IMG/VR virus record: IMGVR_UViG_3300045741_000038
Coordinates: 1-23,712 of that record
Length of the DNA stretch: 23,712 nt
Source of the DNA: a virus
Strand: one strand, 5' to 3'
Shown: positions 1,569-23,712 of the stretch, in pieces
Numbering within the stretch: the stretch's first letter is position 1
How the letters are laid out: every line of letters begins with the position of its first letter
Made by a program: the position numbers and the translations under genes
Notes under the pieces: model-generated
Database searches by the model: none
Told to the model about the DNA's origin: nothing
What the model saw: the letters and a program-made list of their open reading frames with translations, nothing else

Positions 1569-3200
1569 CTATCCTTTGTACCAGTACACCACCGATCCGT
1601 CCACCCCGCGCGGACGGATCATATCCAGGAGAGCGACGTAGAGGCCGAAGGTATAGAACCCTCCCGCCCCTGCTATGTAGTCCACGTCCAGATAGCCCGC
1701 CAGGGCCTCATCCACGTTGTCCCCCTGCCACAAACGGATATCGTCAGCGTTGAAATAGACGCCGTTGGCTTCTCCGGATGCGATCTGGAGGTACATATCG
1801 GCGCCCGTCGCGCTCGCGCGGATCGTGCGCGTGACGTAGAAGTAGAGCCATGTTGCCGTCGCCCCGACGAGCGTTGCCGTCGTGTACTGCCAGGAGCCCA
1901 GGTAATCTCCAAGCACCAGGGAGACGTTTCCAGCCGCCGGGCCCCCCGAGGACGGCAGCCTCACGCGGACGATGAATGAATACTTCGTCCCCGCCACGAG
2001 CCCGTGGAGATCGTTCGTATTCGTGTTGTCCACGAGATGGACGACTCCCGCCGTTCCTGCGGCAACCGTTTTCGTGAACTTGTAGGAGTAGGCCCCGAAC
2101 TTGAATTGCGCGGCATCCCGGGCCCAGGTCGCGCTGGAGAGGACCGGCGTCGTCTCTCCGAAGATCATGGGCGAGGTCGTGCTTTCGCAATCTCCCCTGT
2201 CGATGAGGGTATCCACGCCTCCGAGCCACAACGGCATGTACCCTGGCCCTTCGGAACTCTCAAAGTGAACGATCACCCGGAACTTCGGATAGACGAACGG
2301 GACGCCGAAGCTGATTTCGTCAGCGTCCCAAACGCCCGTGCTCTCTGTGACCATGTGAAGATTCACGGTGATCGTGGACGGGATTTCGACACGATGCGTG
2401 TAAAGCTCGTACCGGCTGGAGGGCGTGAGGTTCAATTCATGGTCAGAGGTCCATGCCGCCGCTTCCCAAACGTTCGTTTTCCAGTTGTACCGTTTGGTAG
2501 TCGCCGAGATCGTCGCCTCCAGGTAGACGTAGGCGTACCGTGTCCCGTTTCCTCCGCTGCCGTTGGCGAAGAGATTGAGGCGCTTTACGCCGGAGGTAAC
2601 TGACGCAATCGCCTGGGCGGCTGCCGCCGTGTCCCCGCCGCCGGGCCGTGTCAGCTTCAAGGCGCCGGTGCCACGGAACTGTGTGCTGGTATCGCGCGCC
2701 ACGGTCCCCGAACCGCCCGTCGAGAGCGTCCACTCCGCGCCCAGCGCCGTCTCGAAGTCGCCGTTCACCATTTGTTCGGTTTCGACGATCTTCTCCATGA
2801 TGTAAAGCTGTCTGCTGTCAAAGTAGTAGCGAAATACGTCCAGGATGGCCCATGGCGTAGCCCAGGATTTGTTTGCCATCCTCTGCGTGAGACTCTTGAT
2901 CCTGTTACGGAAGTTGGCGTCGCTCTCGTCGGGAAGCCTCTTGAGGTAGAGGAACAGCATGGCGAGTTTGTCCAGCGCGAGCCCTTCCATGGCTTCTATG
3001 TCGATGGTTTCCGTGAACCACTTCGCCCATGCCCTGGCATATTCAAGCTCGTTGGCTACCGCGCCACACTGGTAGTCCGCGCTCCTGGTAATGACGGCAA
3101 GCGGCGTGAAAGGAAACTTCCCGTAGATTGCCTGATAGTCCGGGCCGGTTGTCGAGAGCCGCCCCATCTTGTCATTCAGTTCTTCTATGACCGTTGCCAT
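1569..3200 (-). CDS. Baseplate/tail protein I-like with two inserted carbohydrate-binding-like domains
   Basis: A 543-aa protein directly after baseplate J (one-base gap), the usual place for tail protein I (P2 gpI type), which joins baseplate to fibres. Residues 1-137 are helical with LDKLAMLFLYLKRLPDESD and look like the gpI core. Residues 138-302 begin NGDFETALGAEW and end WDADEISFGVPF, the style of a CBM_4_9 beta-sandwich. Residues 303-333 return to the gpI-like type (FRVIVHF, PLWLGG). Residues 334-492 form a second sandwich starting RGDCES and ending FNADDIRLW. Residues 493-543 (GYLDVDYIAGAGG, LYVALLDMIRPRGV) complete the gpI-like fold. So the two domains seem to be inserted into one host protein. 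Sugar binding is inferred; no ligand residues can be assigned. Confidence 0.75.
   Translation of the reverse strand: MATVIEELNDKMGRLSTTGPDYQAIYGKFPFTPLAVITRSADYQCGAVANELEYARAWAKWFTETIDIEAMEGLALDKLAMLFLYLKRLPDESDANFRNRIKSLTQRMANKSWATPWAILDVFRYYFDSRQLYIMEKIVETEQMVNGDFETALGAEWTLSTGGSGTVARDTSTQFRGTGALKLTRPGGGDTAAAAQAIASVTSGVKRLNLFANGSGGNGTRYAYVYLEATISATTKRYNWKTNVWEAAAWTSDHELNLTPSSRYELYTHRVEIPSTITVNLHMVTESTGVWDADEISFGVPFVYPKFRVIVHFESSEGPGYMPLWLGGVDTLIDRGDCESTTSPMIFGETTPVLSSATWARDAAQFKFGAYSYKFTKTVAAGTAGVVHLVDNTNTNDLHGLVAGTKYSFIVRVRLPSSGGPAAGNVSLVLGDYLGSWQYTTATLVGATATWLYFYVTRTIRASATGADMYLQIASGEANGVYFNADDIRLWQGDNVDEALAGYLDVDYIAGAGGFYTFGLYVALLDMIRPRGVDGSVVYWYKG
1725..2201 (-). other. Second carbohydrate-binding-like domain inserted in tail protein I
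   Basis: Residues about 334-492 of the same product. It starts RGDCESTTSP, has SYKFTKT and YSFIVRVRLPSSG strands, and ends FNADDIRLWQG. The pattern is the same sandwich type as the first domain but the two are clearly diverged, so this is not a recent tandem duplication. Boundaries are estimates. Confidence 0.6.
2295..2789 (-). other. First carbohydrate-binding-like domain inserted in tail protein I
   Basis: Residues about 138-302 of the tail protein I-like product. It opens with the typical N-terminal strand MVNGDFET and W157, is rich in alternating Ser/Thr strands, and closes with WDADEISFGVPF, matching the D-D-I/V ending of CBM_4_9-type sandwiches. Boundaries are estimated from where gpI-like sequence stops and resumes. 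Confidence 0.6.
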
Positions 3201-7127: not shown

Positions 7128-8566
7128 AGAGGATTCATCCCCCTCTTGCGCTGCGGTTCCTTCGGCGAGGCCGGGTTGATCTGATCCTGGACCCATTCAA
7201 GGGCCTTGATCTTCTGCCCCGCGTTCTCCATGCGCCCCATCTGCCAGCCCGCGCTATTGTAGTGGTAGCCGCGTGAAATGTCGAGGCGGGTCGTCATTTT
7301 CCCCATGGCGCTCCAGGATCGGCTCGTTTGCTCGATATAGAACTCGCCACCGAGAAATGCCAGCCGTTCCCCGATCCTCGGGTACGGATCGTTCATGGTC
7401 ATAAAGGTCAAAGTCCCCGCGTAGAACTCCTCGTTCGGTTTGTACCAGTAGTACAACTCCCTGGAGATTTGATTCATGGTGACTTTCGCGTTCACGAAGT
7501 TATCCACTTCTGAGGTATCGAAGAATCGAAACTCCGCAATCAGCGGTCGGTATCCGTAGATGGCAAACTTCTTCTGGTCGATGACCGCCGTTCCCGCGCT
7601 CAGGACCTCGGCGAGCCCCCGGTCGATCTGCGAGCCGGGCAGCAACGCGAGATAGAACGTGTAGACGTTCCGATTGTCATTGCTCACGTCATAGCCCGTG
7701 AGAAGAGTGTTGGAGATCCGGCTTATCGGCAACCTGGACCAATCCCCAGGATTGAATGGGGTCTTTCGGAACACGAGGGCATATTTATTCAACTCCCAAT
7801 TCCACCTTCCGAAAAGCTCATAGTACGGAGGGTTTAGAAGCTGCTCCCATACGTCCCATAGTCCATTGTCTCCCGTCCGGAACATGGAGACGGAAATAGG
7901 ATACTGGAGAACCACGTCCTCCGAAAGCTCATTTCCGAAATCCATGTATTTGTCCAGGACTCCCTTCATCCCGAACGTTGTTATGCCCATGGCGGATTTG
8001 ATGCGCTGGAGAAGGGTGTAGTAGGCGGAATACGTCTGTTCCAGTATCGAGCGCACCTTTGCGCCCTTGCCTTGCTCCATGGAGAGCGCGGCCATGAAAG
8101 CCTTTTGTGCCGACTCCGCGCTGGGCAGGGCGAACGCCGCCAGGATTTTCAGATCGAGAACGAACTTGTACGATTGCAGGAGGTAGGCGATTCCGTTTCC
8201 GACGACCACCACGGACCGCTGCGGACCCTGTTCCGTCATGCTGGAGGAATACCTTACATCGTCCACGAACCCGGCATAGCGGTTCTTTCCGAACTCGGAA
8301 ATGATGACGAGATCGCGCGGCTGCACCTTGTCAAACCACGTCTGCCCCTTCGCATCGGCGCGCGCCGTCAACTGGATCGTGAAAGGACAATTCACTCCGC
8401 GAACACTCTCACTGAAATTGTAGGCCAGGAGGTCTGCTTGCTCCGGGTTGACCGCCTCCTTGGTGGAGCGAAAGACTGCTACCTCCCGGATCTGCATTGC
8501 CGCTGATTCGTAGTCGGGCCGCGTCACCGAAACCTCGAATTGTGGCGTCCTTCGGAAGTGACTCAT
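7124..8566 (-). CDS. Baseplate hub protein candidate
   Basis: A 480-aa protein immediately after the tape measure (ATGA overlap) and before the spike, the place of the gp27/gpD-type hub. The N-terminal part has strands and a short motif IQLTARADAKGQTWFDKVQP followed by DLVIISEFG and YAGFVDDVR, as in hub domains that describe position-dependent limits. The C-terminal part (RIGERLAFLGGEFYIEQTS, then MTTRLDISRG) is typical of hub/late-control D-like proteins. No lysozyme or peptidase motif is visible, so wall degradation is not encoded here. The exact family is inferred. Confidence 0.7.
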   Translation of the reverse strand: MSHFRRTPQFEVSVTRPDYESAAMQIREVAVFRSTKEAVNPEQADLLAYNFSESVRGVNCPFTIQLTARADAKGQTWFDKVQPRDLVIISEFGKNRYAGFVDDVRYSSSMTEQGPQRSVVVVGNGIAYLLQSYKFVLDLKILAAFALPSAESAQKAFMAALSMEQGKGAKVRSILEQTYSAYYTLLQRIKSAMGITTFGMKGVLDKYMDFGNELSEDVVLQYPISVSMFRTGDNGLWDVWEQLLNPPYYELFGRWNWELNKYALVFRKTPFNPGDWSRLPISRISNTLLTGYDVSNDNRNVYTFYLALLPGSQIDRGLAEVLSAGTAVIDQKKFAIYGYRPLIAEFRFFDTSEVDNFVNAKVTMNQISRELYYWYKPNEEFYAGTLTFMTMNDPYPRIGERLAFLGGEFYIEQTSRSWSAMGKMTTRLDISRGYHYNSAGWQMGRMENAGQKIKALEWVQDQINPASPKEPQRKRGMNPL

Positions 8567-10683
8567 TTGGCCGTGCCCGCCGCGTCACCCTGGCCGTCCA
8601 TATTGAGGTTGATGACAAGCTCCTTGTTCGCCACCATCCAGCGACGAAGCTCAACGATGAGATCGGCAAGGTCCCCCTCCACCAGCCTTGCCCCGCCCGC
8701 GCTGGTCGGAGACGTTCCCTTTGCATACAGCGCGCTCATGGCCGATGCCCGTCCCCCGGGCTTCACGTTGGAGAGCATGTTGAGGATTTCGATATCAGAA
8801 GCAATGTCCCCGTTGTCCATGCCGAGGAACGTCCCCACGGGTCCCGTGAGCCCAAGAGAGTCTACCTTCACGTCACGGATGGCCCGGTCGATGGTCTGTA
8901 TCATGCCGAGGCTAAAATCCTTCCTCCTGAAAGCGTCGGAGAGCTTATACGCCATCCCCTTGCCCTGAAATGCCTTTAGCTCCGCTGGGCTCATTGAGGC
9001 AAGGCCGGTCGTCATGGCTGCGGCTGCCGATCCCATGGCAGGGTCGGTGTAGCCCTGGCCGAGCCCCGTTGACATGGCCCTCCCCAGGTAGTCCTCGACT
9101 ATCGGAAGTGTTGATCCCCGGAGATTCTTGGCTGCCTGGGCTTGCACGTCGGCGTATTGGTCGGCATACATCTTGTTCCGGATCCCGGGCAGATCGACTT
9201 TCAGCCCCTTCGCCAGAAGCTCGATCACTGTTCCCAGCCCCGTCTCGATTGCAGCCTTCGCGCCGGTGAGCCCGCTGCCGATTTCCCGGATCCTCTCTCG
9301 TATATCCTCCTGGATCGTGAGCAGCTTGACCTCCGGCGTATCCTGGACATTCGGCGCCGTCAACTCTTTCACGGCAGCCTCGGAATTGAGAATGTTCAAC
9401 CTTTCGGCGGTCGTGTAGTTCACACCGAACGTCTGCCGCAGCATTTCAATCCGGCTTGCCTCGTCCTTGCCAGCGTAGCTCCTGATTTTGTCGCGGATGG
9501 CCGTGAACATTTCCTTGTCGATGGTCTGTTCCATCCGCTTCATTACGTCGATGTAGTTCCCGCCCTTCGTCAAGGACTGCGCGGCCTGGAACATGATAAC
9601 GTCGGTATCCTTCGAGAGCGCCGTTGCACCGGCCACCGATTGCGTAAGCTGATTGATGAACTGCGCCCCGCGCGCCCCCTGGTACAGCGGCCCAAGCTGG
9701 GCTATCCAGTTTTGCGTCTCGCTGACCTTCGTGAATCCGGCGGTGACTCCCCTCTCCATCCCCGCCTCGACGATTTGCACCATTGCCTGGAGGTATTCGT
9801 TCGTCCGGCCCGTTCCCATTCCCGTGGCCTGGGCTCCGCCCGCCGCGAGCGCCAGCGGATTCCCGCCGAGCCCGAACAGTTGACCCATGCCGAGCGCGCG
9901 AGACCCCAAGGCCATGTCTACGTTCATGCCGCGCGTGTAGCCGAATAGATTCCGGCTCATGGCGTCTACGTCGCTCGGCTTCCCTCCAGCCTGGATGAGC
10001 CCCTTGAATACGAGGTTGCCCTCCTTGAGCGTGTAGCCGAACTCGGCCGCGCTCTGACTGGCCCGGCTCATGGACTCTTTGAACAGGAGACTGTTTTCCG
10101 CCGCGCTCTTTCCCAGGCCCCCGAGAGCCGCCGCGACGCTCATGCTATCCTGCATGACCGCCTCGTACTGTTCGGAGAGCTTGTTCAGGACCATGGCGGA
10201 TCCGGCGACGACCGCCGTGATTGCGCCCGCCACCTTTGCCGCCGCTGGCATGGACTGGAGAAAGCCCGCCGCCGTGTCGGTTGCACCGATGGCGGCTCCC
10301 GCGATATCGCCTGTACGCCCCAGGTTGGCGAACGTGGACCCGAGCCCCCGCAGGAGCTTGTTCGATTCGGCCAGGAAGTTGGTCTGCTGCCGCCTGGACT
10401 CTTTCTCCTCGTTCGTCTCCTGCTTTGGCCGGTCGTGGACGGCTGCCGGGCCCCCCTTTGGACCGCCCCCTGCGCCGCGCGCCTTCTCCAGCCCAGCGCC
10501 GATTTCCTTTATGTCCTGATTCAGCTTGTTGTACTGTTCCTGCAAGTCCTCGATGCCGAGAGCCTTCTTGGCCTCGCCAGCCTTGCGGATCACTTGATCC
10601 AGGGCCGACGTTGACTTTTGAGCGACCTGGGACAGATTCTCTGTCGCGTCTATGCGGACGCCGAGGTTAGCTTGATCGGACAT
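8563..10683 (-). CDS. Tail tape measure protein
   Basis: A 706-aa, Ala/Gly/Met-rich protein just after the tail chaperones and before the hub, the fixed place of the tape measure. Residues 42-70 are a charged coiled-coil stretch, 71-100 a Gly/Pro/charged linker, and about 147-167 a hydrophobic Ala/Val segment (AKVAGAITAVVAGSAMVL) that may enter the membrane during ejection. The rest is mainly helical. At roughly 0.15 nm per residue it predicts a tail of about 106 nm. No lytic domain is evident. The gene overlaps the preceding chaperone ORF by 17 bases. Confidence 0.88.
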   Translation of the reverse strand: MSDQANLGVRIDATENLSQVAQKSTSALDQVIRKAGEAKKALGIEDLQEQYNKLNQDIKEIGAGLEKARGAGGGPKGGPAAVHDRPKQETNEEKESRRQQTNFLAESNKLLRGLGSTFANLGRTGDIAGAAIGATDTAAGFLQSMPAAAKVAGAITAVVAGSAMVLNKLSEQYEAVMQDSMSVAAALGGLGKSAAENSLLFKESMSRASQSAAEFGYTLKEGNLVFKGLIQAGGKPSDVDAMSRNLFGYTRGMNVDMALGSRALGMGQLFGLGGNPLALAAGGAQATGMGTGRTNEYLQAMVQIVEAGMERGVTAGFTKVSETQNWIAQLGPLYQGARGAQFINQLTQSVAGATALSKDTDVIMFQAAQSLTKGGNYIDVMKRMEQTIDKEMFTAIRDKIRSYAGKDEASRIEMLRQTFGVNYTTAERLNILNSEAAVKELTAPNVQDTPEVKLLTIQEDIRERIREIGSGLTGAKAAIETGLGTVIELLAKGLKVDLPGIRNKMYADQYADVQAQAAKNLRGSTLPIVEDYLGRAMSTGLGQGYTDPAMGSAAAAMTTGLASMSPAELKAFQGKGMAYKLSDAFRRKDFSLGMIQTIDRAIRDVKVDSLGLTGPVGTFLGMDNGDIASDIEILNMLSNVKPGGRASAMSALYAKGTSPTSAGGARLVEGDLADLIVELRRWMVANKELVINLNMDGQGDAAGTAK

Positions 10684-16617: not shown

Positions 16618-17222
16618 TCCTCATCCTCCGCAGGTTGGATTTCGGAGTAGAGCACAGGCCGCGTCTCCTCCCCGATCTTGACTTCCGGGTAGCCCTTCGC
16701 CGTGAATCCCGTCACGGTCCCCCGCTCCCCGTCTACGGTGACAGAGGACCCGCGCTTTATGCGGATCATGGCGCGCTTTCGATTGTTCAACTGTTGCGTT
16801 AGTTGCGTCGTCTTTTCGTCGTACTCCTTCTGGTAGGCTTTCGCATTGCCGGGCTCACTCTGAATCTTCATCATGTAGTACAGAGTGTCATAGTCGATCT
16901 TGAGGTCCAATTCCTTCGTATCCTGGTCGAAGCCATAGTCGGCATACTTGGCTTCCATCTTGTCCGCGAGCCCCGCATCGACCCCGCGCATGATCTCCAG
17001 GAGAGGCTTTATCTGGTGCTCGCGCTGGGCCTCTTCGATGGCGAAAAGGTAGTCCTCCCCGCCGCTGCCTTCGTCGTCACCGAACAGCTTTTCCTGGCCT
17101 TGCTCATCCTGGGAAACCCAGCGCGTCACCGTCTTTCCGGTGCGATCCTGCTTCTTGACCGGCACCAGCTTGGAGTAGTTTCGTGGCTTCACGGCCTTGT
17201 CCAGTCGCAGCGTGAGAATCAT
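16614..17222 (-). CDS. Unknown neck-module protein with SH3/KOW-like C-terminus
   Basis: A 202-aa protein joined by ATGA overlaps on both sides. Residues 40-60 are acidic and Gly-rich (LFGDDEGSGGEDY). Residues 60-155 are helical and charged. The C-terminal 50 residues (KRGSSVTVDGERGTVTGF, then YPEVKIGEETRPVLYSEI) have the strand-turn look of a KOW/SH3-like barrel. I do not recognise the whole protein. Location between connector and neck genes suggests a structural or assembly role. Confidence 0.6.
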   Translation of the reverse strand: MILTLRLDKAVKPRNYSKLVPVKKQDRTGKTVTRWVSQDEQGQEKLFGDDEGSGGEDYLFAIEEAQREHQIKPLLEIMRGVDAGLADKMEAKYADYGFDQDTKELDLKIDYDTLYYMMKIQSEPGNAKAYQKEYDEKTTQLTQQLNNRKRAMIRIKRGSSVTVDGERGTVTGFTAKGYPEVKIGEETRPVLYSEIQPAEDEE

Positions 17223-18760
17223 ATGTTCCCCATCTTCAAGCGGCCGAAGCGGAAACGGTTGTTTGTGAACCAGTCCTCCACGTCCTTCTCGTACTGCTTG
17301 ATGCGGGCGCCGTAGAGCACGGAGTTGTGTGCCACGAACCCGTTGCCGATGAAGTTTTCATTCCCCTTCACCGATATGTCGTACATCTCCGTGGCAACCC
17401 TTTCCACCTTCGAGACGATGCGCGCGTTGTGGATTGCGCCGTCATAGGACACCACGGCCATGTCCCCGACCCGGATCTCCTCCCCCGGCATGACCCTCTG
17501 CTCGCTCCCGCGCTGCACGTAGAGGCTATGATCCTCTGTGACGTGAATCTCGAATCCGTTTTCCGTGGTGACATAGTAGCACTTCTGGTTTTTTCGGACG
17601 TGGTGCTTCATTACGTCGAGCACTTCTTTCGGCTCGATGATCTGATTCTCAACGTCCAGGCTCAGGACCTTTTTCCCAATCCAGGTGTCCCGCTTGCGGA
17701 ACATTTCCCGTATCGTGATCCATTCCCCGTTGTGTTTGGCGATCCTGGTATCACCGGCCACCGATTGCCCGGAGTTGGTAGAGGAGAAAGATTCGCTCAC
17801 GCCATCCATGGACAAGGAGGCCGATGCGAGCCCGCCAAGCTGCGCGTCGGACACCATCTTGAGAATGTCCATGGTCGCCATCTTGCCGATGATCTCCCGT
17901 AGGTCGTCGTCCAGCCTTGCGGCGTCCGCGAGCCCCACCGTATAGTCGATGCGGTAGCCGTGCGGATAGCTGGGAAGCTGGAAACCTCCGATCACGGCAA
18001 AGATGTACGGGTTGGTCATGGACGTGGGCTGCCCCGCGCGCGGGTAGTAGTGAATCACGCCCTTCTGCTTGTCGAGACGAATCCAAGTAGAGAGGTCGAT
18101 GATCTTGCTCTCCACCTGGGAATAAAGCTCGAAACGCTCTACGGAGATCACCGGGCGGCGGCGCAGCGTTACCCACCCGAACTTGCCGAACTTGTCACGG
18201 CGGTACGGGTACGGAGCCTCCTCGATCTCATAGTCCGTTCCGAACACCTTGCCCGTGACTTCCGGGTGACAAGCGATTCGGCGCTGGAGGATTTGATAGC
18301 CCGTGCGCCTCTCGAACTCCAGCGTGGAGTGGTGGACGTGATCCGTGATCTGTTCATCGGTCCAGTAGGTCCCATCCCTGGCGCGGAGGTCGATGCCGAA
18401 GCAGAAGCTGTAGCGGATATCGTCCGCCGTGAATATCTCCCCGAACTGCCCCGTTGGCGGCTTGTAGTTGCCGAACGTGAACCCGATCTTGCCCGACGTT
18501 CCACCAGGGATCGGGTCGGACGATTCGCTCTCGACCGGGCCCGAAGGGTTGAAGTATGCGATCTTGTACCAGGAGCTTGAGACGCCCGTGGAGTCGGTAT
18601 AGTTGTAGATTTCCTGATTGGCGGTCATTACCGGCCGCGTCCCAGGCCCCGTGATCTCCGCGTAGACGCCATCGACATCGGGTGCCCTATAGACTTTCAA
18701 CTGCGAGAAGGTCGCCAGGATGGCAGCTATGTCGTCTACCTTTATCACGAGCGTGTTCAT
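17219..18760 (-). CDS. Head-tail connector protein interrupted by a mini-intein
   Basis: A 513-aa precursor. Residues 1-90 look like an Ig/FN3-like domain (YRAPDVDGVYAEI, WYKIAYF, PVESESSDPIPGG). Residues 100-332 and 480-513 form a connector-like protein (EIFTADDIRYSFCFG, TDEQITDHVHHSTLEFERRTGY, and GARIKQYEKDVEDWF). Between them residues 333-479 are an intein with all standard splicing blocks. After splicing the mature protein would be 366 aa with the junction STNSGQ-SVLYG. Gene starts at an ATGA overlap with the repeat fibre gene. The connector name is from position plus helical pattern; the intein is well supported. Confidence 0.7.
   Translation of the reverse strand: MNTLVIKVDDIAAILATFSQLKVYRAPDVDGVYAEITGPGTRPVMTANQEIYNYTDSTGVSSSWYKIAYFNPSGPVESESSDPIPGGTSGKIGFTFGNYKPPTGQFGEIFTADDIRYSFCFGIDLRARDGTYWTDEQITDHVHHSTLEFERRTGYQILQRRIACHPEVTGKVFGTDYEIEEAPYPYRRDKFGKFGWVTLRRRPVISVERFELYSQVESKIIDLSTWIRLDKQKGVIHYYPRAGQPTSMTNPYIFAVIGGFQLPSYPHGYRIDYTVGLADAARLDDDLREIIGKMATMDILKMVSDAQLGGLASASLSMDGVSESFSSTNSGQSVAGDTRIAKHNGEWITIREMFRKRDTWIGKKVLSLDVENQIIEPKEVLDVMKHHVRKNQKCYYVTTENGFEIHVTEDHSLYVQRGSEQRVMPGEEIRVGDMAVVSYDGAIHNARIVSKVERVATEMYDISVKGNENFIGNGFVAHNSVLYGARIKQYEKDVEDWFTNNRFRFGRLKMGNI
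17324..17764 (-). mobile_element. Mini-intein (147 aa, Ser1, no homing endonuclease)
   Basis: Residues 333-479 of the connector precursor. Block A is SVAGDTRI with Ser1 (codon TCG at 17762-17764) in place of the usual Cys. Block B is FEIHVTEDHSLYV, with the TxxH motif. Block F is MYDISVKGNENFIGNG. Block G is FVAHN followed by Ser+1 (TCC at 17321-17323). The 147-aa length leaves no room for a LAGLIDADG or HNH endonuclease. The catalytic Ser1, His of TEDH, penultimate His, final Asn and Ser+1 are all present, so splicing is expected. Confidence 0.88.
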
Positions 18761-21700
18761 TTCACCCTCTCAATCCTCGGCCTCGACGTTGAGGAGCCCG
18801 CTTTCGGCCTTCGCGTTGTACGCGAGGCGAGGTCGGTATCCGCCGAATCCGAGTACCCGTGCGGTCTAAGCCTGTCTGGACGTGATGCTACACTGGAAAT
18901 GCCACTCGTCTCAAGGAAGCCGCGCGGCCTGTAGTTGGTGACGATGTTGATGACGATGGAGACATGCGGCCAGCCGACAACCGCTTGGCTGCCAATCCCT
19001 ACCGCCCGAATGTTCACGGAGACGCCCGGGCGCCCCAGGGCCTGGACCGATCCAATCCCTACCGGAGACAGCGTGACGCTGACACCAGGAGAGCCGAACG
19101 ACGCCGCCGAGGCAATCCCGCCCGCACCAGAAATCTGCACGTAGGGGCGGACCGTAGGCTGCCCGAAAGCGGCTGCCGACGCCACCCCGCTCGGGTTGAT
19201 ATTGGCCTGGACCCGCTGGAGATCGCCGAACGTCTCTGCCGTGCCGATGCTGGACGGGGAGACCCGGGCCAAGATGCTTGCCGTGCCGAACGCCAGGGCC
19301 GAGCCAACGCCGACCGGTGACAGATTCACGGTGAGTCCAGGAGCGCCGAACACGGAAGCTGATGGTATGCCCGCCGTTACCGTAAGGTTGACGCTGATAG
19401 AAGGTCGCCCGAAGGTTTCCGCGCTGGCGATCCCTGCCGGATCCATCTCTACGCTTACACCCTGGAGGTCCGTCTTTCCACTTTCGTTACCGGGAACGCC
19501 TACCGCCTCTGCCGATGCGATTCCCGCCGGTCCTATCACGGCACGGACAACGGGCTCGGGTCCGAATGCTTCCTCCGATGCAATCCCGCCCGCAGCCGCG
19601 ATAGCGTGGAGGATGCCCCCTACAGTCGGAGCGCCGAAAGACTCAGAGGAGGCAAGTCCCACCGCGCTTATGTCTACGGTGAGCGCGGGTACGCCTATGG
19701 CTTCCGCCGACGCTATTCCAACGGGAGCAAGATTGATGACACCGGATATTACGATGGTCGGAACCCCAAAGGCTTCCGCCGATGCAATCCCTGTCGGACC
19801 TATGCTCGCCGAGAGCGACGGGCTTCCGAACGCTTCCGCGCTGGCTATACCGGTGGGAGCGAGCGTTGTTTGGAGGGAGGGAATACCAAAGGCTCCCGCC
19901 GACGCGATACCGGCAGGAGACAGCGTTGCCTGGATCGCCGGGGTCCCAATGGCTCCCGCCGAAGCAACACCGGTTGGCGCGAGCGTCGCCTGGGCCGCCG
20001 GGGTTCCAAACGCTTCCGCCGAAGCGATCCCTCCAGCGCCAGTAATGGATGCGGGGACAAGGACAGTGGGGACCCCGAAGGCTTCCCCGGATGCTATTCC
20101 CTTTCCGCCGGTAGGAGGGAGTAACGGGTACTTGCTGCTATCAAGAAGAACGGCAAGCTCATCATAGTACGTGGTGTAGGCGGTTGTCGCCATCTGCCCA
20201 TACATGAAGTAGCTGGTGCCAGCCTGTCCGAATGTTGTGAACGACCTTGATTTCAGAAGAGAGAGGTTTTCATCATATACGCTGAAAGCCGGGTCTACTC
20301 CTGCCGCGAACTCGACGGTGATCCAGTACCAATGGTTCGCGGTAATAGAGACATCATCGGACGTACCTCCGGTGATGAGTCCGCGTATCTTATATGCCGA
20401 GGTACCAGAATCGTATGTAGTGGCAATCTGAATGTATTTGGTCCCCGTGTCGTCGTACACGACAAGGATGTTATTACCGGCCGTGAGGGTCTGTGTCGGA
20501 GCCCAAAACCAGAAGCCCAAGGTGACGGGAGCGTTCCCCGTATTCTTCTGTACCAGGACTCTATCTTGCGTTGACCCTACCATCTTCCCCGATGCAGCCC
20601 CGGCCTTCGCCCTGTCGGTTGATGGTATGACCGGGCTCCCCAGCGGCGTGACCGTCCATCCGCTCATGGTGGCGAGAGTCGAGTCCTCGAAATCTTCGTA
20701 AAGGTCCAGCGACGGTGTAGTGAGGTCGATGGTGACAGATACGCCCGGGGCTCCGAGCGCCCCCGCGCTGGCTATCCCGGTAGGAGACAGAATCGCCTGG
20801 GCTGCCGGAACGCCGAGCGCCTCGGCCGACGCTATACCAGTGGGAGACAGTGTTGCCTGTGCGGAAGGAACGCCGAGCGCCCCAGCGGATGCTACGCCAG
20901 TCGGAGAGAGTGTTGCTTGGACTGCCGGGACGCCGAACGCCTCGGCGGATGGAATAGCTGACGGGGAAATCTGTTGGATGGGAATGACAGTCGGGACTCC
21001 GAACGCCTCGGCGGACGTGATCCCTTGCGATATGTACGGACCTATGGCAACCGAATCGACCTTGATATCGTCGAAGTCAACATGGTCCATAAACCCCACG
21101 GAAGCAGTAGGTATGTGCCCTACGTCTATCTCAGTTACTTGGAGATCGGGAGTGCTTGCCTGTGAGGAGACGAGCGTCCCATCTATCCAGAACTGTGACG
21201 TTCCGTTGCGGACATAGTTGATCTCTACGAGATACCATTTCCCTGGTATTAGGTCGGCAAGACCACCGCCAGCGAAGCCTACGCCGTTGGTCAGAGCCCA
21301 TTTGTTGTTTGACTGGACGCCTACATAAAAGAGCGCCCCACCATTAACCAATGAAACGAATTTCTCGTTTCCCGACGACGTGGTGGGAAACCTTATGTAG
21401 AATCTAAAAAAGAGATTGTTTGCTGCCGTGAAATACTTAGCGCCATAGGGATATGAAACGCTCGTCACGAATTGGTATCGGTAGCCGAAACCCTTATGGG
21501 CCGCTGCTGCCGCATCGAGCGCGAAGGTGCTTGGTCCGCCACCGCCAAGGGCGCTAAACTCCCAGGGCGAGCTTCCAGCGTTCTCTCCATCCATGAGAGC
21601 GATTCCCGGTGATTCGCCGTTGTCGGGCGCTATCACCACGCTTATGCTCGGTACTCCGAAGCTCTCCCGGGACGGGATGGCTCCGGCGTTGTGTATCCCC

Positions 21701-22488
21701 AGGTCGGTTGACTGGAACTGGAGAAGGGCCGCGATCCAGTTGCGTCCGTTGGTCAGTGTTTCGTTGGCGTGTTTCGCGCTCCCTGGAGGCGCAGCAAAAT
21801 GCTTGAAGAAGCCATCGAGTCCGAGAGGACCGGCGAATGTTCCATCCGGAGAGAGCGCCGCAATCTGGCGAGTGCCGGAGGTAGTGCCGCCCGATGGATC
21901 ATACTTGATACCGGCAACGTCTACCCCGGGATTGCTCTGCGCGGTGTCCGTCGTCTGTGCATCGTTGCCAAGCCCGACGTTCTCGGCATGTTCATAGAGA
22001 CCGCCGCGCATAGCCGGTATGTTCGACCGGAACTGACGGACCACTACCTCACGGTTTGTGGCAAGCGCGCCGCTGAGATGGAAGGTGAACGTGACGGTGC
22101 TGGCCGGTCCGGGACGCTCCAGGATGAACACGCCGAGCGAAAGCGTACCTTGTGTGTATCGCGCCTGGAGATTGAACGTGAGTCCTCCGCCGGAGAGCGT
22201 CGGCGTATAGCCCGTCTGCCCTTCCCATGCACAGAAGGCCACCAGGAGGTCGTCGCTGAGAATATCCAGGGTCGCAGAGCTTGTAGTGAGGTCCTGGCCC
22301 GCTGCGGCATTGATGCCGTAGGACGCTCCAATCTCGACGAACGGATTGAGGTTGGGTGTTCCGATTACCTCGGCAGAGGCTATCGCTACGGGACCGACTA
22401 CCGCCGATACACCGGGGGCGCCGAACGCCTCACCCGATGCAATGCCCGAAGGTTGGATTACATAGGGTGTGGCGAGTAGAAGGCTCAT
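18757..22488 (-). CDS. Large repeat-rich fibre or adhesin-like virion protein with LamG-like domains
   Basis: A 1243-aa protein. About 26 copies of a ~20-residue unit with consensus PxGIASAEAFGxPxVxVxL appear: two at residues 12-46, one near 268-288, five at 487-586 and about 18 at 795-1183. Between them lie a beta-rich domain (52-266), a LamG-like sandwich (295-485; FFRFYIRFPTTSSG, KWYLVEINYVRNG, FWIDGTLV, FDDIKVDS) and a second LamG-like sandwich (595-788; LGFWFWAPTQTL, HWYWITVEFAAG, YYDELAVLLD). The C-terminal 60 residues are Arg/Ser-rich. There is no signal peptide. It lies right before the connector gene, so a head- or neck-attached fibre binding glycans is an inference. A tail-attached fibre cannot be excluded. 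Confidence 0.8.
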   Translation of the reverse strand: MSLLLATPYVIQPSGIASGEAFGAPGVSAVVGPVAIASAEVIGTPNLNPFVEIGASYGINAAAGQDLTTSSATLDILSDDLLVAFCAWEGQTGYTPTLSGGGLTFNLQARYTQGTLSLGVFILERPGPASTVTFTFHLSGALATNREVVVRQFRSNIPAMRGGLYEHAENVGLGNDAQTTDTAQSNPGVDVAGIKYDPSGGTTSGTRQIAALSPDGTFAGPLGLDGFFKHFAAPPGSAKHANETLTNGRNWIAALLQFQSTDLGIHNAGAIPSRESFGVPSISVVIAPDNGESPGIALMDGENAGSSPWEFSALGGGGPSTFALDAAAAAHKGFGYRYQFVTSVSYPYGAKYFTAANNLFFRFYIRFPTTSSGNEKFVSLVNGGALFYVGVQSNNKWALTNGVGFAGGGLADLIPGKWYLVEINYVRNGTSQFWIDGTLVSSQASTPDLQVTEIDVGHIPTASVGFMDHVDFDDIKVDSVAIGPYISQGITSAEAFGVPTVIPIQQISPSAIPSAEAFGVPAVQATLSPTGVASAGALGVPSAQATLSPTGIASAEALGVPAAQAILSPTGIASAGALGAPGVSVTIDLTTPSLDLYEDFEDSTLATMSGWTVTPLGSPVIPSTDRAKAGAASGKMVGSTQDRVLVQKNTGNAPVTLGFWFWAPTQTLTAGNNILVVYDDTGTKYIQIATTYDSGTSAYKIRGLITGGTSDDVSITANHWYWITVEFAAGVDPAFSVYDENLSLLKSRSFTTFGQAGTSYFMYGQMATTAYTTYYDELAVLLDSSKYPLLPPTGGKGIASGEAFGVPTVLVPASITGAGGIASAEAFGTPAAQATLAPTGVASAGAIGTPAIQATLSPAGIASAGAFGIPSLQTTLAPTGIASAEAFGSPSLSASIGPTGIASAEAFGVPTIVISGVINLAPVGIASAEAIGVPALTVDISAVGLASSESFGAPTVGGILHAIAAAGGIASEEAFGPEPVVRAVIGPAGIASAEAVGVPGNESGKTDLQGVSVEMDPAGIASAETFGRPSISVNLTVTAGIPSASVFGAPGLTVNLSPVGVGSALAFGTASILARVSPSSIGTAETFGDLQRVQANINPSGVASAAAFGQPTVRPYVQISGAGGIASAASFGSPGVSVTLSPVGIGSVQALGRPGVSVNIRAVGIGSQAVVGWPHVSIVINIVTNYRPRGFLETSGISSVASRPDRLRPHGYSDSADTDLASRTTRRPKAGSSTSRPRIERVK
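18940..20106 (-). repeat. Main block of ~18 coding repeats, 20-residue unit
   Basis: Protein residues 795-1183 of the repeat fibre. The best-kept core is GIASAEAFG, followed by x-P and an alternating V-x-V-x-L strand. Unit lengths vary from 18 to about 30 residues, with insertions such as the one at residues 1000-1016. At the DNA level the units are diverged, so they are not a recent expansion. Towards the C-terminus the core drifts (GIGSVQALG, GIGSQAVVG). Confidence 0.85.
20731..21030 (-). repeat. Second block of five coding repeats between the two LamG-like domains
   Basis: Residues 487-586. Units 5-8 (AIPSAEAFGVP, GVASAGALGVP, GIASAEALGVP, GIASAGALGAP) are close to exact 20-residue spacing with near-identical linkers AQATLSPTG, the most regular part of the protein. 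Confidence 0.85.
22351..22455 (-). repeat. Two N-terminal coding repeats of the fibre protein
   Basis: Residues 12-46: PSGIASGEAFGAPGVSAVVG and PVAIASAEVIGTPNLNPFVE, both 20 residues. They place the repeat at the very start of the protein, ahead of the first beta-rich domain. Confidence 0.75.
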
Positions 22489-22492
22489 CTCA

Positions 22493-23161
22493 TTAGAATG
22501 CTGTCACGTCCGCCCATGCACAGTCTACCACTACCACGACACCGTTTGCGGTTGCCGACCCGGCGACGACGTTCTCGAACTCCCATCCTTCATTCTGGAT
22601 GCAGACCAACGGATGCGTTCCGTTCATGTCGTCCACAAGCTCCTGTACGGAGGGAAGCGTTCCTGCGGCCATCGTGACGGCGGAGAAGAGAACCGTTCCG
22701 AGCGCGTTTCCGTCCTTTGTCAGAGTCCCGCCTGTCATTCCTGCCGCCGCACCAGCGACCGTGTTGTGCCTGACAACCGCGCTCGTCCCGGGGTAGGCAA
22801 CCATGCCTGTCGTGCGCTTCACCGATCCTGTTGGCGTTACCGTGTTCGTCGTGTCGATGGCCGTGAATGACGTGCAGCGGAACAGCGAGATGTCGCCAAG
22901 GTACTGCGTCGTCACCGTACCGTTCGGCATGGCCTGGACGCGCGCGCGCGTGAGAATGATGAGGTTTGTGGCATGGGAATTGCGGACCTCGAAAAGCCGC
23001 GAGTTTGCGGCCTGGGAGATCGCCATGGTGAGCTTGATCGAAGTCCGGTAGTGACCCAGGGACCCGTACTCCAGAGGCTTGACATGGACATGCAGAGCGC
23101 GGAACGTCGTCCCGCCTACTTCCGCCACAACTCCCGAGTTGCCCTGTACCTGGATTGCCAT
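22493..23161 (-). CDS. Beta-rich virion protein, unknown function
   Basis: A 222-aa protein starting one base after the previous stop. It opens MAIQVQGNSGVVAEVGG and is rich in Val/Thr strands, with LTMAISQAANSRLFEVRN and a later TGSVKRTTGMVAYPGTS. It has few Lys/Glu helices, no Cys pair and no signal peptide. Size, composition and position before the repeat fibre fit a structural component, for example a base for the fibre or a minor head protein. I recognise no family with confidence. Confidence 0.6.
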   Translation of the reverse strand: MAIQVQGNSGVVAEVGGTTFRALHVHVKPLEYGSLGHYRTSIKLTMAISQAANSRLFEVRNSHATNLIILTRARVQAMPNGTVTTQYLGDISLFRCTSFTAIDTTNTVTPTGSVKRTTGMVAYPGTSAVVRHNTVAGAAAGMTGGTLTKDGNALGTVLFSAVTMAAGTLPSVQELVDDMNGTHPLVCIQNEGWEFENVVAGSATANGVVVVVDCAWADVTAF

Positions 23162-23162
23162 G

Positions 23163-23396
23163 CTATACCCCCGCGAGCACGGCTCGCCTCAAGAATCGGA
23201 TCATCGCCCGGCAGTCAGTGATGTTCATGTTCATCGAGACGTGCGACAGGCCATGCGCTACGGTCTCATTCGCCGCCTTCTCCAGAAGGGCTGCCAGTTC
23301 CGCCGCGTCGAAGCGTTCAATCTGCCGGGCTCCGAGCCTCGGGGCGAAAGCGGGATTCTCCAGTGCGTTACGAAGCTCAGTCTGCGTCAGTTCCAT
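23163..23396 (-). CDS. Small helical protein, unknown function
   Basis: A 77-aa protein starting at ATG 23396, which shares its A with the stop of the upstream gene (TGATG). A longer reading from 23450 would cover the end of that gene and is not preferred. The sequence is helical with charged residues (LTQTELRNALENPAF, ELAALLEKAANETV) and a C-terminal DCRAMIRFLRRAVLAGV. No domain recognised. Its position suggests a small structural or assembly factor. Confidence 0.55.
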   Translation of the reverse strand: MELTQTELRNALENPAFAPRLGARQIERFDAAELAALLEKAANETVAHGLSHVSMNMNITDCRAMIRFLRRAVLAGV

Positions 23397-23712
23397 CAGT
23401 AAGTCACCCTGAACACCACAAAACTGCACGACCCCGAGAAGTCGATCCATACCGTGCTGTCTGTCTGCGTGTAGATGTCGGGCCTGTTCTCGACCCAGAC
23501 GAACGACTGCCCTGCCCCGACTGAAAGAACACGGTCAACGATGGTGAGGTCTATGTCGGCCTTCGCGGGAACCCGCACCGTGCAGATGATCGGCGCGGAT
23601 GGCGAGTAAACCTCAAGAAGGATTATGTCACCGGCCTGTACCGAGAAGCTATTTCCGTTCACCAGGTCGGGGTTGCTCCACGTCAGTAGCGCCCCAGCCC
23701 GGGGAAGGTTGA
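23396..23712 (-). CDS. Partial beta-rich protein, unknown (N-terminus beyond window)
   Basis: The reading frame is open from the right edge to TGA at 23396-23398, giving about 105 residues. A GTG at 23662 could serve as start, but the 16 codons upstream (reading RAGALLTWSNPDLVNG) continue in the same style without a stop, so the gene likely begins outside. The visible part is Val/Ile/Ser-rich with strands such as GDIILLEVYSPSAP, AKADIDLTIVDRVLSVG and WIDFSGSCSFVVFRVTY. No family recognised; a virion protein is likely from context. Confidence 0.5.
   Translation of the reverse strand, partial: NLPRAGALLTWSNPDLVNGNSFSVQAGDIILLEVYSPSAPIICTVRVPAKADIDLTIVDRVLSVGAGQSFVWVENRPDIYTQTDSTVWIDFSGSCSFVVFRVTY

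Follow-up and report, generated by a model that had tools for sequence, protein, structure and literature searches.

A repeat-built candidate fibre gene beside the head-tail connector of an uncultured contractile-tail phage and the anchor cassette of its relatives

Head, neck and tail fibres in described phages

Fibres attached to the heads or necks of phages are known from microscopy, and for some of them, such as the capsid fibres by which phage 7-7-1 contacts flagella, the fibre protein is unidentified (PMC12796354). The neck of the Anabaena myophage A-1(L) bears five flexible fibres that have a carbohydrate-binding module at the distal end (PMC10966104). The wing of phage Bxb1, which comprises the gp31 arm and the gp33 brush (PDB 9d93), is a tail structure. 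In the head fibre of phi29, gp8.5 forms supercoiled helix-turn-helix repeats. The shaft of the adenovirus fibre, a triple beta-spiral, is built from a short strand-turn-strand repeat with Gly/Pro turns.

We analyzed a 23.7-kb record of an uncultured virus (23,712 nucleotides; "the window" denotes this whole stretch), in which a gene for a protein with 26 GIASAEAFG-type units follows a gene for a 222-aa protein. Like gp82-gp81-gp80 of A-1(L) (PDB 8KEG), the fibre that we propose would be long and flexible, would sit at the neck of a contractile phage and would combine an anchoring protein with a carbohydrate-binding module at the distal end (PMC10966104); the beads of A-1(L) are, however, separate subunits, whereas in the window one chain carries the repeats. 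Blastp and profile searches of the 222 family against gp80, gp81 and gp82 gave no significant match, and kinship with these proteins was discarded as having no sequence support. The likeness to the capsid fibres of 7-7-1 and phiCbK lies in the proposed function, a first reversible contact via head-borne fibres (PMC12796354), whereas the 222 family matched none of 50,697 cultured-phage records (three queries). As regards gp8.5 of phi29, the model of the window protein shows strands and no helices, but its mean pLDDT of 38 is too low for a comparison. The proposed shaft would resemble that of adenovirus in its short strand-turn-strand repeat, with units of 20-22 residues in place of about 15. 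Neither the peptide GIASAEAFG nor neck or head fibres built from repeats turned up in literature searches.

The repeat gene and its place in the window

Downstream of the repeat gene, the genes read as those of a contractile-tail phage in normal order, namely a connector-position protein, tail completion (gp10-like), sheath, tube, tape measure, baseplate and tail fibre, the small genes being named from position; head genes are absent because the contig ends. The repeat gene starts with ATG, 4 bp behind the 222 gene, and overlaps the next gene by 4 bp. It lies upstream of connector, terminator and sheath, and the tape measure gene (8563-10683) follows 8 kb downstream. The initial annotation had placed it just before the connector, and synteny with Pseudomonas phage Touem01 bears this out: homologues of the connector-position, gp10-like, sheath, LysM/gp25 and baseplate J proteins occur there in the same order, the gp10-like gene on the other strand. 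In Touem01, no more than two small genes, of about 145 and 52 aa, separate the major capsid protein from the connector, indicating that the repeat gene is an addition in this slot. Neither a whole-window megablast against cultured phages nor a direct search of viral_contigs for relatives of the full repeat protein, the connector and the sheath returned a match.

Two further observations concern these neighbours. The connector-position ORF contains a 147-aa mini-intein (SVAGDTRI...FVAHN, then Ser; 17324-17764, minus strand; Pfam Intein_splicing E=7.4e-15, Hint E=3e-7), which is too short for a homing endonuclease and is absent from the Touem01 homologue. One internal domain of a baseplate-region protein (1569-3200, minus strand) is related to contig L087 (39% over 159 aa); modules of this kind are hence also present at the tail end.

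Table 1. Coordinates of the repeat gene, its parts and the adjoining genes in the window (L numbers denote related contigs).
Feature	Position	Strand	Evidence or remark
Incomplete 104-aa gene, contig end	23396..23710	-	relatives in L026, L053
95-aa gene	23163..23450	-	family also directly upstream of the 222 gene in L128, L149, L092, L139, L154 and others
222-aa partner protein	22493..23161	-	family in about 90 IMG/VR contigs
Repeat gene (candidate fibre), 1243 aa, 26 units	18757..22488	-	PHROG 13352, E=9.3e-66
N-terminal anchor MSLLLA, residues 1-6	22471..22488	-	common to genes behind the 222-family gene in other phages
First repeat block, residues 15-43	22360..22446	-	core profile scan
D1, residues ~50-268	21685..22341	-	no Pfam match, no phage match
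D2, LamG/concanavalin-like, residues ~290-487	21028..21621	-	Laminin_G_3, E=1.9e-4, below curated cut-off
Second repeat block, residues 489-590	20719..21024	-	core profile scan
D3, possibly SO2946-like C-terminal domain, residues ~592-795	20104..20715	-	PF22237, E=0.0036, below cut-off
Main repeat block, residues 797-1175	18964..20100	-	two short strands per unit predicted, low confidence
Basic C-terminal tail, residues 1176-1243	18760..18963	-	acidic/Leu tail of many relatives absent
Head-tail connector-position gene, with intein	17219..18760	-	homologue of Touem01_00060

A position-specific profile scan, in which units had to score above the 95th percentile of shuffled proteins, found exactly 26 GIASAEAFG-type 9-mers, so that both the gene and the copy number given in the initial annotation are borne out. 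The units are mostly spaced by 20 residues, otherwise by 21-24 and once by 30. Their core codons vary synonymously (four Gly, three Ile and five Ser codons are used), which argues for a unit kept by protein-level selection and against recent DNA duplication; TRF reported just two short 60-bp arrays. From the N-terminus, the protein consists of the anchor, repeats, D1, a single unit at 270, D2, repeats, D3, repeats and the basic tail.

Two of the three inserted domains had been described as LamG-like, a description that is partly right: D2 scores 22.0 bits against Laminin_G_3 at a curated cut-off of 27.6, D3 weakly resembles an SO2946-like C-terminal domain and D1 found nothing in Pfam. A relative of D2 was found in L005 (E=2.5e-7). 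On the basis of the sub-threshold LamG match, the protein may bind glycans or mucus.

A near-invariant gene pair and variable repeat bodies

By sequence, a close described family is PHROG 13352, carried by Mycobacterium phages and prophages and labelled minor tail protein, which has the same repeat and matches the repeat region in seven stretches. We found the GIASAEAFG repeat in 37 Mycobacterium phage records, mostly in genes annotated as minor tail protein. The one carrier examined in detail has its repeat gene behind the tape measure gene, a tail-tip position that the window gene does not share. Set against these cultured carriers, the window differs further in that D1 and D3, like the 222 family, have no match in cultured-phage records, and D2 has one weak match.

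A pattern scan of IMG/VR returned the repeat in at least 119 stretches. Among the matches listed, the genes downstream encode terminase, major head protein, head maturation protease, neck, tail terminator, head-tail adaptor and sheath proteins, and these families outnumber baseplate or minor tail families (tallies were counted by family, and related families overlap). The position in the head-neck module, which had been singled out as unusual, is thus real but not paradoxical: it is recurrent and common outside cultured mycobacteriophages. A constant association of homologues with baseplate genes is excluded.

The commonest neighbour of GIASAEAFG genes is phrog_644 (~135 aa; L004:2474-2881 and relatives, a cluster of 58), a homologue of gp31, the tail wing arm of Bxb1 (PDB 9d93_Ra, E=9.3e-26). 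There also appears to be a second pair of anchor and partner: repeat proteins starting MARFGR.FP (L026:1782-3053, L033:1593-3980) are encoded behind apparently related 170/201-aa genes and are followed by connector-type genes. Upstream of other GIASAEAFG genes (L030, L082, L085, L032) are genes of ~177-258 aa that seem distantly related to the 222 family (hhalign probability 76, E=2.9e-6).

In L092, a homologue of the 222 protein is encoded directly upstream of another GIASAEAFG gene, which also starts with MSLLLA. A profile built from these two 222 proteins retrieved 62 loci, and the gene behind the 222 gene starts with M[SA][LI]L[LI] in about 36 of 59 loci after two false positives were removed. 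Such starts occur in 23 of the 2170 genes called across all loci, 22 of them directly behind a 222 gene. The Ser and Leu codons of the tag vary synonymously, hence the start is conserved as a peptide. Starts discarded by hand were L155, L254 and L255 (MSLLLLTSC, lipoprotein-like, 521 nt away), and L149 was taken out of the count as a 41-aa ORF. The window itself combines three of the features by which we define the cassette, namely a 222-family gene directly upstream, an M[SA][LI]L[LI] N-terminus and tandem repeats of 20-22 residues.

In almost every locus, the 222 gene is closely preceded, mostly at a distance of 4-25 nt, by a gene of a further family of ~110-135 aa, named LDFGAFPG after its motif; in the window this gene is not visible and would fall beyond the contig edge. 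As a held-out test, we rescanned with a profile of 26 sequences and obtained 30 contigs not seen before. The LDFGAFPG gene preceded the 222 gene in 29 of them, the exception having only 58 bases upstream, while a credible MSLLL gene followed in 10 of the 30. Six of these ten have a period of 20-23 (or 40) residues, the others 16, 35 or none. A different type of gene stands behind the 222 gene in about 40-65% of the 222 loci. The base pair of 222 and LDFGAFPG genes is therefore near-invariant, and the gene behind it varies and is of the MSLLL type in part of the loci. PDB searches with the full repeat protein and with the 222 profile returned nothing relevant, and a match of the LDFGAFPG profile to chloroplast PsbY (E=4.7e-4) was judged to be due to chance.

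Behind the tag, the bodies of the MSLLL genes fall into at least ten clusters unlinked by blastp. GIASAEAFG units are found in the window, in L092/L148 and in L132, TTDGADVLAA units in L134 and L145, AYTWAGTTA in L135, TNANDT in L140, GGLTSGTAGVVERTRKVV in L156 and SGQTL in L180; the members L131, L144, L146 and L147 are proline-rich. A significant internal period was detected in 24 of 32 MSLLL-type genes (a list that includes one false positive, L155), with 20-22 residues in 19 cases and 40 in one. Repeat classes are exchanged behind a constant tag in the same genomic place. Many MSLLL proteins additionally end in acidic and leucine-rich stretches, for example DDEEILLLL (L140, L141, L150, L176, L180, L134, L156, L161); the window protein does not.

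Candidate attachment site and proposed shaft

PHROG scans of 20 neighbouring genes, picked by eye as likely landmarks rather than sampled at random, gave head and packaging functions for the most part and placed a portal gene upstream of the cassette in seven contigs (L134, L141, L150, L161, L171, L180, L181) and downstream in three (L127, L147, L149), and a protease or major head protein gene downstream in four (L139, L161, L181, L127). The contigs with a head-adjacent cassette are podophage-like and siphophage-like, and the window adds a myophage. A fibre of the head or neck, as the initial annotation had ventured, is the reading best supported by this adjacency to portal, protease and capsid genes in most readable loci; the minor tail proteins of mycobacteriophages limit it.

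With modest confidence, we therefore favour an accessory virion fibre, whose location we infer from synteny. It would attach most likely at the head or neck, at the capsid or the portal vertex, with the N-terminal MSLLLA peptide docking on a base formed by the 222-aa protein and its usual LDFGAFPG-family partner. The 26 units would make up an elongated shaft of strand-turn-strand repeats of ~20 residues, probably trimeric or solenoidal, and the three inserted domains, at least one of them LamG-like, would be glycan-binding modules along this shaft that serve reversible attachment to the cell surface or matrix. More tentatively, the cassette could represent an undescribed class of head or portal-vertex fibres in uncultured podo-, sipho- and myophages, in which a constant two-protein base and hexapeptide tag carry unrelated shafts of ~20-residue period that are exchanged wholesale, with ligand domains spliced in.

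Evidence from the mycobacteriophages counts against a head or neck fibre, namely the PHROG 13352 label and the position behind the tape measure gene described above. The same holds for the absence of head genes, of an LDFGAFPG gene and of an acidic/Leu C-terminus from the window, for the share of 222 loci with a different gene behind the 222 gene, for the missing sequence link to the A-1(L) proteins and for the low pLDDT of the models. The gene might accordingly encode a tail-tip adhesin of the tail-wing or minor tail protein type that is merely located in the head-neck cluster, and we retain this unlikely alternative since phrog_644, next to many GIASAEAFG genes, is homologous to the Bxb1 arm; a relative of the LDFGAFPG family also occurs among the tail-fibre genes of Octadecabacter virus DB2. 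Of the ten genes of the window that were scanned, none belonged to phrog_644; the contig ends before the upstream part of the cassette. A tail location is, however, at odds with the head-gene neighbours of the 222/MSLLL cassette and with the separate large tail-fibre-like genes elsewhere in the podophage-like L181 and L145, and the window has a tail fibre gene of its own (3-1565).

Structure predictions bear on the shaft. The AF2 model of the window protein (1180 residues, 16 sequences) was unusable for a fold search, and its very low pLDDT, together with the Ala/Ser/Gly-rich, low-complexity units, would also suit a brush or spacer that is flexible and in part disordered and spreads the binding domains without forming an ordered shaft, like the PPII brush of Bxb1 gp33 (PMC13243192). 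The proline-rich proteins in the same slot point the same way. Yet the period is strict across many unrelated sequences and the units are conserved at the protein level. The L145 repeat, modelled at a mean pLDDT of 55, shows two strands per 21-residue unit, so that strand pairs are predicted in register in two unrelated classes, both from low-confidence models. Foldseek found no significant match for the L145 model, its weak best matches being largely beta-solenoids. We consider a brush improbable and prefer a strand-turn-strand fold, which the poor models neither confirm nor refute. A role inside the particle or in its assembly, such as that of an alternative scaffold or a length ruler, would fit the slot between portal and scaffold/capsid genes in L181 and L180 and the hydrophobic tags that many members have at both termini, but is very improbable given the LamG-like module, the adhesin-like architecture and the separate gene in the usual scaffold position of L181 and L134.

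Fibres as such are a known component of phages; what is unusual here is that, in the head module of uncultured phages, a constant anchor is combined with repeat shafts that are exchangeable yet equally spaced. That sequences unrelated to one another share one period in this slot points to repeats evolving convergently or under a constraint of shape. Since the cassette of LDFGAFPG gene, 222 gene and MSLLL-anchored repeat gene can be recognized by sequence, it provides concrete fibre candidates in many uncultured phages, along with a testable rule of constant anchor and variable shaft.
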